Shown here: positions 1-5,511 of the stretch, one piece after another
Numbering within the stretch: the first letter of the stretch is position 1
How the letters are laid out: each line of letters starts with the position of its first letter
From: Desulfobacteraceae bacterium
Lineage (GTDB): Bacteria; Desulfobacterota; Desulfobacteria; Desulfobacterales; Desulfobacteraceae
Assembly: GCA_003354055.1 (NCBI GenBank)
Contig: PIVQ01000518.1
Span: 1 to 5,511 of the forward strand
Length of the DNA stretch: 5,511 bases
Direction of reading: 5' to 3'
The notes under the pieces: model-generated
The model's input: only the letters and a program-made list of their open reading frames with translations
What the model was told of the DNA's origin: nothing
Database searches by the model: none
Position numbers and translations under genes: made by a program

Positions 1-3000
1 GAGGGGGATTTTACCGTTAAGGTAAGGGAAAACCCCAGATTCATAGATCCGGAAAAATGTACGGCATGCGGGGAGTGCTCCGATGCCTGTCCCGTGGAAC
101 TGCCCAGTCAGTTTGACGAAGAACTCCGGGACAGAAAAGCGGCGTTTAAACTCTATCCCCAGGCCATGCCCAGCGCCTATTCTATTGAGAAAAAAGACAA
201 GGCCCCCTGTAGGCTGACATGTCCGGCCGGACTCAACGTCCAGGGCTATGTCCAGATGGTTAAAGAGGGGAAGTTTAAAGAGTCTCTGGAAATTATCATG
301 GAGCAGTTGCCTCTGCCGGGTGTGTTGGGCAGGGTCTGTCCCCATGAGTGTGAAGATGCCTGTCGCCGATGCCAGGTGGATGAGCCTGTGGCTATCCGGG
401 ACCTGAAACGGCTGGCTGCTGATAATTTCGACCCCAGGGAAGTTGAAATCCCCTGTGCGGAAAAGATCAATAAGAAGGTCGCCATCATCGGTTCCGGGCC
501 CGCAGGGCTGTCCGCAGGTTACCATCTGGCCCGCCAGGGTGTGGATGCGACCATATTTGAGGCCCTGCCAAAGGCCGGCGGCATGCTAAGGGTCGGGATT
601 CCCGATCACAGGTTGCCGCCCGAGGTCCTGGATAAGGATATCGAGGTCGTCACCAATCTGGGTGTTGAGCTTAAGCTCAATACCCGTCTGGGAAAAGATT
701 TTACTATAGACAGTCTCCTGGCCGACGGCTTTGAGTCTGTTTTTTTAGGTCTGGGTGCCCATACCGGTATTGATTTGGGGATTCCGGGCGAAGATTTGGA
801 AGGTGTCCGCCAGGGGGTTGATTTCCTCAAAGAACTCAACCTTACAGGTACGACTTTCGTCGGTAAAAAAGTGGGCATCATCGGCGGCGGTAACGTGGCC
901 ATTGATGTGGCAAGATCAGCCGTACGTCTGGGGGCCGAAGAGGTCACCATACTCTATCGCAGAACCCGCAAGGAAATGCCGGCCTGGGAAGAGGAAATCT
1001 GTGCTGCGGAAGACGAAGGCACAAAGATCACTTATCTGGCTGCACCCCAGGAAATCCTGGAGCAGGACGGAAAAGTATCCGCTGTCCGGGTAATCAAAAT
1101 GGAACTGGGTGAACCGGATGCCTCTGGGCGTCGCCGCCCTGTGCCGGTGCCCGGCTCTGAATATGATATCGAGATTGATCAGCTTATCCCGGCAATCGGC
1201 CAGCGGCCGGATCTGACGGCATTGGAAGAACTGGCTGATATCAAAATCTCCAAATGGAATACCACAGAGGTCAATCCCCTGACCCTGGAAACGGACAAAC
1301 CCGGTGTTTTTGCCGGTGGTGATGTCCAGACTGGTCCGGGTGTTGCGATCTCCGCCATAGCGGCCGGTATGGAAGCCGCGGAATCCATTGTCCGGTATCT
1401 CACCGGAAAAGATATGGAAGACGGCCGCGAGCTGCCCATGGTTGAAGAACCGGATTACAGGCCGGTTGATGAAAAATGGCCAATTGAAAACCGGTACAAA
1501 ATGCCGGAACTGGCCGCGGCTGAACGGGTGGGCAATTTTAATGAGGTGGAACTCGGCTATGGGGTTGAAGAGGGGCTAAAAGAAGCCTCACGCTGCATTA
1601 ACTGCGGATACTGCTCCGAATGTATGCAGTGCGTAGATGCCTGTCTGGCAGATGCGGTCAATCACAACATGCTGGGCAAGACCCACAATATCAATGTGGG
1701 CGCCATTATAATGGCACCGGGATTTGCACCGTTTGAACCTGACAATATGGTGACCTACTGCTACGGCCACAGCCCCAATATCATGACCTCCGTGGAGTTT
1801 GAGCGGGTGCTGTCTGCCTCAGGTCCCTATGCAGGGCACTTGGTAAGGCCGTCGGATAATAAAGAACCCAAAAAGATTGCCTGGCTCCAGTGCGTAGGGT
1901 CCAGGGATATTAATAAGGGAGACCACTCCTATTGTTCAGGGGTTTGCTGTATGTATGCAAACAAGCAGGCTATCATTGCCAAAGAGCATGCAGACTATGA
2001 CCTGGACTGTGCCATTTTTTACATGGACATGAGGACCCATGGCAAGGAGTTTGATAAGTACAATATCAGGGCCCAGGACGACAACGGGGTCCGTCTTGTC
2101 AGATCCAGAATTCATTCGGTGTTCCCGGAACCCGGTGATAAATATCGTCTGGTCTATTCCAGCGAGGCCGGAAAATCCGTGGAAGAGATTTTTGACATTG
2201 TGGTCCTTTCCATAGGTCTTGCGCCTAACAAGGATGCCGTGGCTCTGGCGGATACGATGGGTATTGAGCTCAACGCCCACGGGTTTGCCGATACCACTAA
2301 CCTGGCACCTGTGACAACCAGCCGGAAGGGAATCTTCGTCTGCGGTACCTTTCAGGAACCCAAGGATATCCCGGGGTCTGTCATGGAAGCCTCGGCAGCC
2401 GCTGCCACAGCCACCATGGCAATGAAAGATGCCCGGTGGTCCCAGACAAGGACCCGTGAGCTGCCGCCCGAGAGGGACTTTACAGGGCTGGCACCCAGAA
2501 TCGGAGTCTTTGTCTGTAACTGCGGTATCAACATCGGCGGTATTGCTGATGTGCCTGCAGTCAGGGATTATGCCAAAACGCTGCCCTATGTGGTTCATGT
2601 GGAGGATAATCTGTTTACCTGCTCCCAGGATGCCCAGGATCATATGAAAGATGTGATTCAGGAAAATGAGATCAATCGGGTCGTCGTGGCCTCCTGTTCA
2701 CCTAGGACCCATGAGCCTCTGTTCCAGGAAACCATACGGGATGCAGGCCTAAACAAATATCTATTTGAAATGGCCAATATCAGGGATCAGAACACCTGGG
2801 TTCACATGAACGAACCTGAAAAAGCTACGAATAAGGCCAAGGATCTGGTCCGCATGGCCGTGGCTAAGGCCGCCTTTGTGGAACCACTGCACCAGGTCGA
2901 CCTGCCCATTAAAAAGTCTGTACTGGTGGTCGGCGGCGGTGTGGCCGGTATGGAGGCTGCGTTAGGAGCGGCGTCCCAGGGTATTGATGCTCATCTGGTG

Positions 3001-4167
3001 GAGCGTGCTCCGGTACTGGGCGGCATTGCCAATCATCTGAACACCACCTGGAAGGGAGAACCGGTCCGTGCCTATCTGGATCATTTGACCGAATCAATTA
3101 AATCCTCTGAAAATATAACCCTTCATATGGAATCCGAGGTCACAGCGACCACCGGGTCCATAGGTAATTTTATTACAACCATAACCAATGGCGCCGGCGA
3201 GTTTTCTGTGGAACACGGGGCTGCTATCATTGCCACCGGCGGTATGGAGTATAAACCGGATGAGTATCTCTACGGGGATCACCCTGATGTGCTCACCCAT
3301 CTGGATATGGATGCTGCGCTTCGTGAAGAGGATGACAGGGTGGCGGCAGCCAAGTCGGTTGTTTTTGTTCAGTGCGTGGGATCCCGGAACGTGGAAAATC
3401 CCTATTGTTCCAAGGTATGCTGTACCCACAGCCTGAAATCGGCCATTTCCCTGAAAAAAATAGATCCCAGAAAACGGGTCTATGTGGCATACAGGGATAT
3501 CCGGTCTTACGGGTTCAGGGAAGATCTCTACCAGAAGGCCCGTGAAATGGGTGTCCTCTTTATCCGATATGACCTGGAAAAGATGCCCAAGCTTAGAATA
3601 GACGGTGAAGGCCAACTGGAGTTCACGGTGATTGACCACGTCCTTCAGATGGAGGTTCTGGTGAATCCGGATCTGGTGGTACTGGCATCGGGTATTGTGC
3701 CCGGCGACAACAAACCCCTGTTCGAAAAGTTCAAAATTCCGGTCAACGCTGAAGGCTTCCTGGTGGAGGCCCATGCCAAGCTCCGGCCGGTGGATTTCGC
3801 CTCGGACGGTCTGTTTGTGGCAGGACTTGCCCATTATCCCAAGCCTCTGGAGGAGAGCATTGCCCAGGCAGGAGCTGCTGTGGCCCGTGCCATGACAATC
3901 CTGTCCCGTGATTCCCTCAAGGTCGGCGGTGTGGTGGCGGATGTGACCACTGAAAAATGTGCGGTCTGTCTGACCTGTGTCAGAACCTGCCCCTATTCTA
4001 TCCCCTTTATCCATGAAGACGGATATGCCCAGATTGAAGCATCTGAATGTCATGGATGCGGGGCTTGTGTGGCGGAATGTCCGGGCAAGGCCATTAAGTT
4101 GAACCATTTTACAGACCAGCAGATCATTGCCAAAACCGATGCCCTGTTTGAGGAGGTGTCGTCATGA
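1..4167 (+). CDS. hdrA: HdrA-GltD-HdrA fusion flavoprotein, 5'-truncated
   Basis: Multi-cluster flavin oxidoreductase subunit, likely cytoplasmic. The frame is open from base 1, so the start lies upstream; 1388 residues are visible (numbered from base 1). Order: CxxCxxCxxxCP ferredoxin motif of HdrA unit 1 (C20-C30); GltD-type N-terminal cysteines (C70, C74, C113-C124); FAD motif GSGPAG (164-169); NAD(P)H motif GGGNVA (295-300) followed by YRRTRKEMPA; FAGGD (437-441); six-cysteine motif (532-548); rest of HdrA unit 1 with QCVGSR and CSGVCC (631-650). HdrA unit 2 follows: CNCG (839-841), CSPRTHEPLFQ (C899), FAD motif GGGVAG (978-983), QCVGSR and CSKVCC (1125-1141), then two CxxCxxCxxxCP motifs (1320-1330, 1350-1360). 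Known for the families: HdrA bifurcates electrons through FAD, and GltD/NfnB modules bind FAD and NAD(P)H. Inferred: electron entry and bifurcation subunit for the MetVF reductase downstream. The stop is TGA followed directly by in-frame TAA. Confidence 0.93.
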   Translation, partial: EGDFTVKVRENPRFIDPEKCTACGECSDACPVELPSQFDEELRDRKAAFKLYPQAMPSAYSIEKKDKAPCRLTCPAGLNVQGYVQMVKEGKFKESLEIIMEQLPLPGVLGRVCPHECEDACRRCQVDEPVAIRDLKRLAADNFDPREVEIPCAEKINKKVAIIGSGPAGLSAGYHLARQGVDATIFEALPKAGGMLRVGIPDHRLPPEVLDKDIEVVTNLGVELKLNTRLGKDFTIDSLLADGFESVFLGLGAHTGIDLGIPGEDLEGVRQGVDFLKELNLTGTTFVGKKVGIIGGGNVAIDVARSAVRLGAEEVTILYRRTRKEMPAWEEEICAAEDEGTKITYLAAPQEILEQDGKVSAVRVIKMELGEPDASGRRRPVPVPGSEYDIEIDQLIPAIGQRPDLTALEELADIKISKWNTTEVNPLTLETDKPGVFAGGDVQTGPGVAISAIAAGMEAAESIVRYLTGKDMEDGRELPMVEEPDYRPVDEKWPIENRYKMPELAAAERVGNFNEVELGYGVEEGLKEASRCINCGYCSECMQCVDACLADAVNHNMLGKTHNINVGAIIMAPGFAPFEPDNMVTYCYGHSPNIMTSVEFERVLSASGPYAGHLVRPSDNKEPKKIAWLQCVGSRDINKGDHSYCSGVCCMYANKQAIIAKEHADYDLDCAIFYMDMRTHGKEFDKYNIRAQDDNGVRLVRSRIHSVFPEPGDKYRLVYSSEAGKSVEEIFDIVVLSIGLAPNKDAVALADTMGIELNAHGFADTTNLAPVTTSRKGIFVCGTFQEPKDIPGSVMEASAAAATATMAMKDARWSQTRTRELPPERDFTGLAPRIGVFVCNCGINIGGIADVPAVRDYAKTLPYVVHVEDNLFTCSQDAQDHMKDVIQENEINRVVVASCSPRTHEPLFQETIRDAGLNKYLFEMANIRDQNTWVHMNEPEKATNKAKDLVRMAVAKAAFVEPLHQVDLPIKKSVLVVGGGVAGMEAALGAASQGIDAHLVERAPVLGGIANHLNTTWKGEPVRAYLDHLTESIKSSENITLHMESEVTATTGSIGNFITTITNGAGEFSVEHGAAIIATGGMEYKPDEYLYGDHPDVLTHLDMDAALREEDDRVAAAKSVVFVQCVGSRNVENPYCSKVCCTHSLKSAISLKKIDPRKRVYVAYRDIRSYGFREDLYQKAREMGVLFIRYDLEKMPKLRIDGEGQLEFTVIDHVLQMEVLVNPDLVVLASGIVPGDNKPLFEKFKIPVNAEGFLVEAHAKLRPVDFASDGLFVAGLAHYPKPLEESIAQAGAAVARAMTILSRDSLKVGGVVADVTTEKCAVCLTCVRTCPYSIPFIHEDGYAQIEASECHGCGACVAECPGKAIKLNHFTDQQIIAKTDALFEEVSS

Positions 4168-4220
4168 TAAATCAACCCCGAAATGAAAATAGGGACAGGA
4201 AAACGGGAGGTGCCGTATGA
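4164..4220 (+). CDS. Possible 18-codon coupling ORF between hdrA and mvhD
   Basis: A tiny ORF, reading MINQPRNENRDRKTGGAV, fills the hdrA-mvhD gap. Its ATG (4164) overlaps the hdrA stop as ATGA, and its TGA (4218-4220) overlaps the mvhD ATG as ATGA. An AGGAGGTG sequence at 4151-4158, inside the end of hdrA, sits about 7 bases before the ATG, which is good Shine-Dalgarno spacing. The peptide is hydrophilic, has no recognisable domain and is out of frame with mvhD. If translated, it would carry ribosomes from hdrA to mvhD rather than act as a protein. The Shine-Dalgarno-like run could simply be the Glu-Glu-Val codons of hdrA, so the call is tentative. Confidence 0.3.
   Translation: MINQPRNENRDRKTGGAV
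4205..4212 (+). promoter_or_regulatory. Ribosome binding site of mvhD
   Basis: GGGAGGTG, with the GGAGG core ending 6 bases before the ATG at 4217. It fixes the mvhD start upstream of the in-frame TGA, and so supports readthrough of that TGA over initiation at the ATG at 4298, which lacks a comparable purine-rich site at the right distance. Confidence 0.8.
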
Positions 4221-4642
4221 GTCAGGATTTCGAACCGAGAATTGTTGCCTTCTGTTGCCAGTACTGAGCGTACGCAGCAGGGGACCTGGCAGGTTCCATG
4301 AGGCTTTCCTATCCTGCAGATATTAAGGTGATCCAGGTGCCGTGCACAGGGCGGGTGGATATCCTCCATCTGCTCAACGCCATCGAGGATGGGGCGGACG
4401 GTGTGTATGTGGCAGGGTGCCTTGAAGGGGAATGTCATTATCTGGAAGGCAATCTCAAGGCAAGACGGAAAGTTGAATATGTAAAAAAGACCCTGAAAGA
4501 ACTGGGTATCGAGCCGGAACGGGTGGAGATGTACAATCTCTCCTCTGCCCAGGGGGCACGTTTTGCTGAAATTGCCAATGAAATGGCGGAAAAGATAAAG
4601 GCACTGGGCCCCACACCGGTTCAAGCCAATTCTGCGGCATAG
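4217..4642 (+). CDS. mvhD: Selenocysteine-containing MvhD-type Fe-S subunit
   Basis: Small [2Fe-2S] electron-transfer subunit that in known complexes links HdrA to a partner enzyme. Reading the in-frame TGA at 4265-4267 as Sec gives 141 residues, close to the usual MvhD length. The N-terminus reads IVAFCCQYUAYAAGDLAG (residues 9-26), aligning with the family's CCxxCxYxxxDLAG motif so that Sec17 replaces a conserved cysteine. Other family signatures follow: PCTGRVD (C43) and GCLEGECHYLEGN (C68, C73). The coding frame is conserved on both sides of the TGA, there is a good ribosome binding site, and a hairpin lies at suitable distance. Sec forms of this subunit are known (VhuD of methanogens, BamF of Geobacter). 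Position between hdrA and metVF suggests it carries electrons between them. Starting at ATG 4298 would lose 27 residues including three metal-ligand candidates. A nonsense mutation is the less likely alternative. Confidence 0.93.
4265..4297 (+). promoter_or_regulatory. Sec UGA codon and putative bacterial SECIS hairpin
   Basis: Downstream of the TGA (4265-4267), bases 4282-4287 (GGACCT) pair with 4291-4297 (AGGTTCC), leaving one bulged U (4294 or 4295) and a GGC loop at 4288-4290. The loop begins 20 bases after the TGA. A short stem with a bulged U and a G-starting loop at this distance matches the known bacterial SECIS pattern read by SelB. The stem is short, and a 4-bp competing hairpin (4278-4281 with 4285-4288) exists, so the exact fold is uncertain. 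Confidence 0.72.
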
Positions 4643-4682
4643 AACGCTTAGCGTCGTCCGGCAGAAAATGAATACCAATTCT

Positions 4683-4717
4683 CCCGGATCCGGCCCACTC
4701 GGTGAGCCGGATCCGGG
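4683..4717 (+). repeat. Perfect 12-bp inverted repeat in mvhD-metV gap
   Basis: CCCGGATCCGGC (4683-4694) is exactly complementary to GCCGGATCCGGG (4706-4717), with an 11-base spacer whose CAC/GTG ends can extend the stem past one mismatch. Each arm contains the self-complementary CCGGATCCGG, so the arms are also direct repeats. No T run follows on either strand, so it is not a typical intrinsic terminator. In mRNA it would be a very stable GC-rich hairpin that could protect the upstream message, mark a processing site, or lower metVF expression relative to hdrA-mvhD. No convincing promoter is visible in the 97-base gap. Confidence 0.85.
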
Positions 4718-4727
4718 AACAAATAAC

Positions 4728-4739: not shown

Positions 4740-5417
4740 ATGATAGTTGCTGATCGTAAATCCATTGAAGAAATATTAGGGATGGTGGAATACTGCAAAA
4801 AGGTGCTTGTCGTCGGTTGTAAAGGCTGTGTAACGGTCTGTAATACAGGCGGGCTCAAGGAGGTTGAGATTCTGGCCTCCACCATGAAGATTGCCCGGAA
4901 AAAGGCAGGCAATGAAATTGAGATTGACGAGCGGGTGCTGGAACGCCAGTGCGATACCGAATATGTCGCCCAGCTGGGGGAGGAAGTAAACGAATATGAT
5001 GCCGTGGTTTCCATGGCCTGCGGGGTCGGCCCTCAGTTTTTATCTGAAATGTACAAAGAACAGACCTTTTTTCCGGCGGTAAACACCACGTTTTTCGGTG
5101 GGGCTACCCAGCACGGCGTCTGGGAAGAACGGTGTGCCGGTTGCGGTACCTGCGGTATACATATGTTCGGCGGTCTATGTCCGGTTGCCCGGTGTGCCAA
5201 AAGCCTGCTTCATGGCCCCTGCGGCGGATCCTCAAACGGTGCCTGTGAGATAAGTAAGGATACCGAATGCATCTGGGACTCCATTGTCAGAAAGAAAATG
5301 GAAGCCGGGCAATTGGAAGACCTTATGGGTGTCAAAGGTCTGAAAGACTGGCAGACGGCAAGGGACGGCGGCCCTAGAAAGAGTATAAGAGAAGAACTGG
5401 TTCAGGGAAACATATAA
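4740..5417 (+). CDS. metV: MetV, Fe-S partner of methylenetetrahydrofolate reductase
   Basis: Encodes 225 residues of the family annotated as methylenetetrahydrofolate reductase C-terminal domain protein (MTHFR_C, zinc-finger-like). In acetogens MetV forms a complex with MetF and carries Fe-S clusters that relay electrons to the MetF flavin. Visible motifs: GCKGCVTVCNTGG (C27, C30, C34) near the N-terminus, RQCDTEY (C71), MACGVGPQ (C94), then a cysteine-rich C-terminal region with CAGCGTCG (C132, C135, C138), LCPVARCAK (C147, C152), GPCGGSSNGAC (C161, C169) and C177. The first part resembles a Rossmann-like domain with an N-terminal cluster site. There is no signal peptide or membrane segment, so it is cytoplasmic. 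It is separated from mvhD by a 97-base gap with a strong hairpin and from metF by 14 bases. The ATG at 4740 has a suitable ribosome binding site. The family assignment is firm; cluster number is inferred. Confidence 0.9.
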   Translation: MIVADRKSIEEILGMVEYCKKVLVVGCKGCVTVCNTGGLKEVEILASTMKIARKKAGNEIEIDERVLERQCDTEYVAQLGEEVNEYDAVVSMACGVGPQFLSEMYKEQTFFPAVNTTFFGGATQHGVWEERCAGCGTCGIHMFGGLCPVARCAKSLLHGPCGGSSNGACEISKDTECIWDSIVRKKMEAGQLEDLMGVKGLKDWQTARDGGPRKSIREELVQGNI

Positions 5418-5431: not shown

Positions 5432-5511
5432 ATGAGTGAACTCAAATCAGGAAGTAACCTTGAAAAAGTCCTTGCGGCCGGTCATTTTGCATTCACAGGG
5501 GAATGCGGTCC
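5432..5511 (+). CDS. metF: Methylenetetrahydrofolate reductase, N-terminal fragment
   Basis: Only 26 full codons are present before the window ends. The fragment starts MSELKSGSNLEKVLAAG and then reads HFAFTGECGP, which matches the beginning of the MetF TIM-barrel, where a first beta strand ending in TGE(C/I)GPP is typical of MetF proteins that pair with MetV. MetF carries FAD and reduces 5,10-methylenetetrahydrofolate to 5-methyltetrahydrofolate. The start is clear from the strong ribosome binding site and the 14-base gap after metV. The assignment relies on a short motif plus the adjacent metV, so it is good but not complete; the rest of the gene lies downstream. Confidence 0.82.
   Translation, partial: MSELKSGSNLEKVLAAGHFAFTGECG

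Follow-up and report, generated by a model that had tools for sequence, protein, structure and literature searches.

Predicted Selenocysteine in the MvhD Subunit of an HdrL-MvhD-MetV-MetF Gene Cluster from a Desulfobacteraceae-Type Sulfate Reducer

Introduction

The small [2Fe-2S] electron-transfer subunit MvhD, encoded in an HdrL-MvhD-MetV-MetF cluster of a Desulfobacteraceae-type sulfate reducer, is predicted with high confidence from sequence comparison to be a selenoprotein, in which the UGA at position 4265 would be decoded as selenocysteine (Sec) by SelB and tRNA-Sec under the guidance of a coding-sequence hairpin at 4281–4297. An earlier reading made from the letters of this DNA (the sequence-only reading) had named mvhD a selenoprotein gene in its title, and this claim is supported by the location of the TGA at a cysteine position, by conservation of the hairpin in TGA forms only, by the presence of Sec machinery in most carriers, and by shortened database entries.

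Sec-containing MvhD is already known in sulfate-reducing bacteria, and the novelty implied by the sequence-only reading was set too high, because published accounts of the Sec form in this bacterial group go back to 2009 (PMC2702500). The new elements are the conserved HdrL-MvhD(Sec)-MetV-MetF cluster, the hairpin that is invariant across Desulfobacterota and three Acidobacteria MAGs, and a paralogous cluster with an in-frame TGA in HdrL. Neither a Sec-MvhD tied to metVF nor the invariant hairpin was found in the covered parts of openly licensed PubMed Central papers.

Organization of the Locus

The window, that is, the whole analysed stretch of 5,511 nt, carries on its plus strand, in this order, the 3′ portion of an HdrL-type gene, mvhD, metV, and the start of metF; the ribosome binding site, the in-frame TGA, and the SECIS-like hairpin of mvhD lie on the same strand. 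The HdrL-type gene (1–4167) is an open frame with its 5′ end beyond the window; it uses TGA as stop and its 3′ terminus reads TCA TGA TAA. The product is an HdrA extended by a glutamate-synthase-like domain that binds NAD(P)H (Pfam Pyr_redox_2, Fer4_20, and Fer4); it scores 792.1 bits against the HdrA2 model NF040770, below the cut-off of 1100, and also matches glutamate-synthase-like families.

The mvhD gene of the FlpD family (4217–4642) extends from ATG (4217–4219) through the in-frame TGA at codon 17 (4265–4267) to TAG (4640–4642) and would encode 141 residues with Sec as residue 17. The ribosome binding site GGAGG (4206–4210), read from the sequence six bases 5′ of the ATG, is in place as had been stated earlier. 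The metV gene (4740–5417) matches PF12225 (methylene-tetrahydrofolate reductase C terminal) with 109.4 bits, and the metF start (methylene-tetrahydrofolate reductase, 5432–5511), cut by the window end, was identified by its first residues, which are like the start of a gene of a Desulfobacula relative (locus L003) that itself belongs to PF02219. Because the gaps are short and the strand is common, the arrangement suggests that the HdrL-type gene, mvhD, metV, and metF form one operon.

Two inverted repeats were observed in the intergenic regions. One, of 18 pairs, is located at 4681–4719 in the mvhD-metV gap of the window and is terminator-like only on the minus strand; the other is a long repeat at about 9908–9969 in the hdrL-mvhD gap of L003. 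The corresponding hdrL-mvhD gap of the window comprises 49 bases and has no repeat of the L003 type.

The In-Frame TGA and the Conserved Cysteine Position

The read-through product matches the Pfam FlpD profile PF02662 with 171.9 bits (cut-off 22.3) over profile positions 1–123 of 123, versus 137.9 bits over positions 21–123 for the open reading frame that starts from Met28, which leaves profile positions 1–20 unmatched. Both flanks of the TGA therefore belong to the FlpD family in a single frame, as the sequence-only reading had proposed. In one scan of a genome collection, of which the best 80 of 148 loci were kept, codon 17 was TGA in 45/80 related loci and TGC or TGT in 35/80, with no third codon type among the 80. 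This agrees with the earlier placing of TGA 4265–4267 at a conserved cysteine position, since 80/80 loci have Cys or TGA there; homologues lacking both Cys and Sec at position 17, which had been named as evidence that would speak against a selenoprotein, were sought and amounted to 0/80 loci.

A pseudogene or sequencing error, in which the TGA would be a nonsense mutation or a miscalled Cys codon, may be suggested by the single base that separates TGA from TGC or TGT and by the cysteine found in 35/80 relatives. However, sequencing error is excluded because the TGA recurs in 45 other loci; the remaining protein is conserved, and a common hairpin accompanies the TGA forms and is missing from the Cys forms, so that this explanation is scarcely credible.

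Among the best 120 of 7654 database proteins matching the full product, position 17 was occupied by Cys in 116 entries, by Trp in 3, and by Arg in 1. The Trp entries read CCQYW twice and CCQHW once and are probably the result of TGA being translated with code 4 by the gene caller. These 3/120 entries are what a genome-wide reassignment of TGA without Sec, such as the Trp reading of code 4, would also print, but TGA terminates 116/278 mechanical frames of at least 300 codons in the Sec loci, and the code is therefore not reassigned. Moreover, relatives without the TGA have Cys there rather than Trp, and most carriers have SelB and tRNA-Sec, which leaves reassignment with a negligible probability.

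In 45 aligned sequences with TGA read as Cys, the cysteines 14, 43, 68, and 73 were invariant and position 17 was Cys in at least 90%. The predicted Sec17 replaces a family cysteine and forms, together with Cys 14, 43, 68, and 73, the conserved set of cysteine positions for the [2Fe-2S] cluster. The AlphaFold model of MvhD, with Sec read as Cys, reached a mean pLDDT of 90.4, and its closest PDB folds, 7bkb_F (TM 0.91), 5odc_D, and 8rvu_F, are chains of Hdr complexes. Against the VhuD model of NCBIfam (NF045873) MvhD scored 156.8 bits, below the cut-off of 215; the protein may work in a VhuD-like manner while standing outside this model.

Residue 13 (4253–4255) is an extra cysteine in CCxxU, replaced by Leu in several MvhD paralogues within the same loci (LCNWC); Cys13 might add one more thiol close to the cluster.

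Truncation in Databases and the Internal Start Codon

The best 120 of 3694 database matches to the truncated product all start at Met28, corresponding to the frame 4298–4642 of gene callers, and for this reason the earlier statement that standard gene calling would truncate mvhD is correct. These 120 entries thus start 27 residues late, without Cys14 and the Sec position, and the redox site then escapes surveys of Hdr and methylene-THF reductase complexes among sulfate reducers. A comparable shortening of methanogen hdrA genes in gene prediction by Sec codons has been described (PMC12054007). The invariant 32-base tag composed of TGA, 14 bases, and a 15-base core can serve as a simple marker for fixing this misannotation.

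The in-frame ATG at 4298 that gene callers use is also the starting point of another explanation, where the first 16 codons are a leader peptide, the TGA is a regulatory stop, and translation restarts at Met28 to yield a shorter but functional MvhD. However, such a product would lose the first strand and helix along with position 17 and the conserved Cys14; besides, residues around the TGA are conserved as protein, and only TGA or Cys codons occur at the site in 80 loci. The leader peptide is accordingly judged very unlikely, and Sec insertion into the full-length MvhD remains the preferred reading.

The Recoding Hairpin

In bacterial selenoprotein genes a stem-loop is situated shortly after the TGA and its apical loop starts with G, and in archaea the Sec recoding signals sit in the 3′ untranslated region. 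The SECIS-like hairpin of the window (4281–4297), as RNA, has a 7-bp stem formed by arms 4281–4287 and 4291–4297 shortly 3′ of the TGA and an apical loop GGC (4288–4290) that begins with G. The 15-base core GGACCTGGCAGGTTC (4282–4296), located 14 nt 3′ of the TGA, is identical in 46/46 TGA forms, window included, and present in 0/35 Cys forms, which bears out the SECIS-like hairpin of the sequence-only reading.

The mean synonymous entropy of codons 22–26 was 0.00 bits in TGA forms versus 1.36 bits in Cys forms, and in the flanking codons the two groups were alike (codons 18–21: 1.36 versus 1.31; codons 27–42: 1.11 versus 1.25). Where these loci match HdrL, MetV, and MetF, the fixed codons GAC, CTG, GCA, and GGT account for only 0.39, 0.41, 0.23, and 0.25 of their respective codon families, and codon bias therefore does not explain their fixation.

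Folding energies gave a different picture. For the window hairpin 25/200 dinucleotide shuffles folded equally well (z −1.28), and in the synonymous-codon shuffle, with a codon pool that included the Sec loci, p ≤ 0.05 was reached in 0/46 Sec loci and 5/35 Cys loci, with mean z of +0.33 and −0.46, respectively. Since these energies are uninformative or contrary, the case for the hairpin is a comparative one and rests on synonymous-site conservation. None of the SECIS families of Rfam matched the window with E ≤ 1, and a single weak Rfam match was irrelevant.

The core being invariant, covariation was examined for change at the single pair 4281–4297. Of the 46 TGA forms, 34 have G-C at this basal pair, 5 have C-G, and 7 are mismatched (C-C); with 15 added loci (L085–L099) the figures were 34, 16, and 11 of 61, and in Cys forms the same columns were C-G in 7/35 and C-C in 24/35. 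The basal-pair covariation gives modest support to the hairpin, modest because the relatedness of the loci is uncorrected.

One Cys form (L052, 2337–2753) is one base off the Sec hairpin core. It might be a relic of lost Sec but does not exceed chance, as about 0.3–0.7 such loci are expected according to a hand estimate from the codon counts of the Cys group.

Selenocysteine Machinery in Relatives

The machinery on which the sequence-only reading had made its claim depend was looked for in relatives of the window organism. SelB was over cut-off in 37/44 TGA-form genomes and tRNA-Sec in 35/44, at least one of the two in 41/44, and both in 31/44; the best tRNA-Sec matches of the 35 genomes scored 68.7–78.8 bits against a cut-off of 47. 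In control genomes tRNA-Sec was over its lenient cut-off in 5/14 and SelB in 2/14.

The genome of Desulfamplus magnetovallimortis (locus L033) has SelB, tRNA-Sec, and SelD over cut-off. In the TGA-form genome G010, SelB, tRNA-Sec, and SelD were all absent over cut-off. Two further genomes (G024 and G037) have no SelB and tRNA-Sec over cut-off, and in both SelD, which was looked for in five genomes, was found with its own in-frame TGA. Six SelB-bearing genomes gave no tRNA-Sec over cut-off, including the single-contig G039, in which 74/312 candidates were scored.

Machinery as a discriminator between Sec and Cys forms was tried and rejected: SelB was found in 37/44 TGA-form versus 22/34 Cys-form genomes, and tRNA-Sec in 35/44 versus 20/34, two of these 20 being near the cut-off.

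Conservation of the Cluster and the Paralogous HdrL-TGA Cluster

The clustering of an hdrA-type gene, mvhD, metV, and metF, by which an Hdr-type methylene-THF reductase is recognized, is present in the window and its relatives. HdrL, MetV, and MetF all adjoin mvhD in 41/45 Sec loci in the order HdrL-MvhD-MetV-MetF, which confirms the earlier proposed linkage to metVF; the other 4 loci are cut by contig edges: 2 that have MetV and MetF begin at such an edge, and 2 that have HdrL end at one. In Cys loci all three neighbours occur in 27/35; of the rest, 3 run into contig ends and 5 lack a match to one or more of the three. No in-frame TGA was observed in the adjacent HdrL, MetV, and MetF within the tblastn alignments, and wherever the alignment covers position 65 of the window-type HdrL (34 Sec and 27 Cys loci), this residue was Cys, the hdrL portion of the window itself stopping short of this position.

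In five genomes (L095–L099), one of which has Cys in its window-type copy, the second copy of MvhD was inspected, and the order HdrL-MvhD-MetV-MetF was again found in 5/5. The paralogous HdrL is 48–59% identical to the window-type HdrL and contains in 5/5 an in-frame TGA within FPTNDCxM-TGA-(V/I)ISPKLVE, a CxxU motif, followed in 5/5 by CTGGTCG-AGGT-CGGCCGG, which forms a hairpin by the energy model in 4/5. In these clusters an in-frame TGA followed by a hairpin-forming sequence is seen in both HdrL and MvhD.

According to these observations a broader scheme can be put forward as a speculative and rather doubtful possibility. Two parallel methylene-THF reductase complexes might exist, one with Sec in MvhD only and Cys in HdrL, the other with Sec in both HdrL (CxxU) and MvhD, where successive Sec redox sites would determine at which potential or in which direction each complex works, acetate oxidation versus CO2 fixation being an example, and where a single ancestral hairpin, with its nucleotides unchanged in both Desulfobacterota and Acidobacteriota, would have travelled with MvhD.

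Distribution and Origin

The Sec form of MvhD was found in Desulfobacterota and in three Acidobacteria MAGs, with one invariant hairpin common to all. The pattern of TGA, 14 arbitrary bases, and the core was matched in 44/44 Sec genomes and in 98/395 genomes drawn from the phylum, and the reversed control pattern gave 0 matches in this search; the loci fetched from the phylum encoded in 10/10 cases a CCxxU MvhD in frame. A second form starting with TGAGG is also present in 32/44 Sec genomes.

A quick tree built on 73 of 81 rows (the window plus 72 loci, with 8 rows omitted), which carries a long-branch warning among Cys rows, needs at least 4 changes between Sec and Cys forms, 3 of them forced by starred branches, these counts not separating gain from loss. 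Because the hairpin is identical throughout, one origin followed by losses or transfer is favoured.

Proposed Role of the Sec Residue

MvhD is reviewed as a holder of one [2Fe-2S] cluster that passes electrons to the HdrA flavin (PMC6019823), and in Sporomusa ovata pull-downs it binds HdrA, HdrB, and MetF, with no tight complex purified in the reported work (PMC9430772). Sec17 would bind the [2Fe-2S] cluster or lie beside it, and MvhD would mediate electron transfer between a partner and HdrL (NAD(P)H/flavin), linking HdrL to the chemistry of MetVF, which may interconvert methylene-THF and methyl-THF, probably running towards methyl oxidation as in acetate oxidation. Hypothetically, Sec tunes the redox potential of MvhD; if it does so at this electron-transfer centre of the reductase, this bears on the wiring of acetate oxidation near the thermodynamic limit.

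Comparison with Known Systems

A close precedent is Desulfobacterium autotrophicum HRM2, which shares the family, the bacterial group, and the Sec form: mvhD1, mvhD2, mvhD3, and mvhD5 are given as Sec-containing, and mvhD adjoins hdrA and hdrL genes, while the covered parts of the paper give no Sec position, hairpin, or metV/metF linkage for these genes (PMC2702500). An in-frame UGA with SECIS was also reported for mvhD of Desulfococcus multivorans (PMC5109826) and for a methyl-viologen-reducing hydrogenase gene of MvhD type in the Desulfobacula-like genome Deltaproteobacteria-bbl-31 (PMC8318568); in the covered parts of both papers these are list items without cluster or hairpin comparison. 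Judging from its name, locus L005 (isolate CORE_19_RING_Bin_00001) is probably from the bbl-31 genome, and its TGA form is 90% identical.

The HdrCBA-MvhD-MetVF systems of Moorella thermoacetica and Sporomusa ovata are similar in that MvhD and MetVF are encoded with HdrA (PMC9430772). They differ in having Cys where the window MvhD has the predicted Sec. No match to hdrB or hdrC with E up to 1e-10 was found among the 8/15 ORFs scanned in one relative, L003.

The sequence-only reading had stated that Sec at this position is known in VhuD and BamF. For VhuD, a 2026 review counts MvhD/VhuD as a Sec family with the motif CxxU and 2 Sec (PMC13188914), and the solved chain 9sfi_K, a delta subunit of F420-non-reducing hydrogenase, has an X, taken to be Sec, aligned to position 17. 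The BamF part was not established: BamF is described as a predicted selenite-binding subunit (PMC13119186), and in D. multivorans Sec is said to be in BamE (PMC5109826).

The methanogen MvhD/VhuD thus resembles the window protein at position 17 but has two such positions, with another X at 68, and hydrogenase or formate dehydrogenase partners. In MvhD of the Acidobacteria locus L053 two in-frame TGAs were observed, at 10040–10042 (codon 17) and at 10193–10195 (codon 68), the latter in this only locus. The codon-68 TGA is followed by the stem TTTCCT/AGGAAA with loop GGA, whose energy was equalled by 19/200 shuffles, compared with 18/200 for the matching Cys stretch of the window. Both TGA positions of L053 match the X positions of 9sfi_K.
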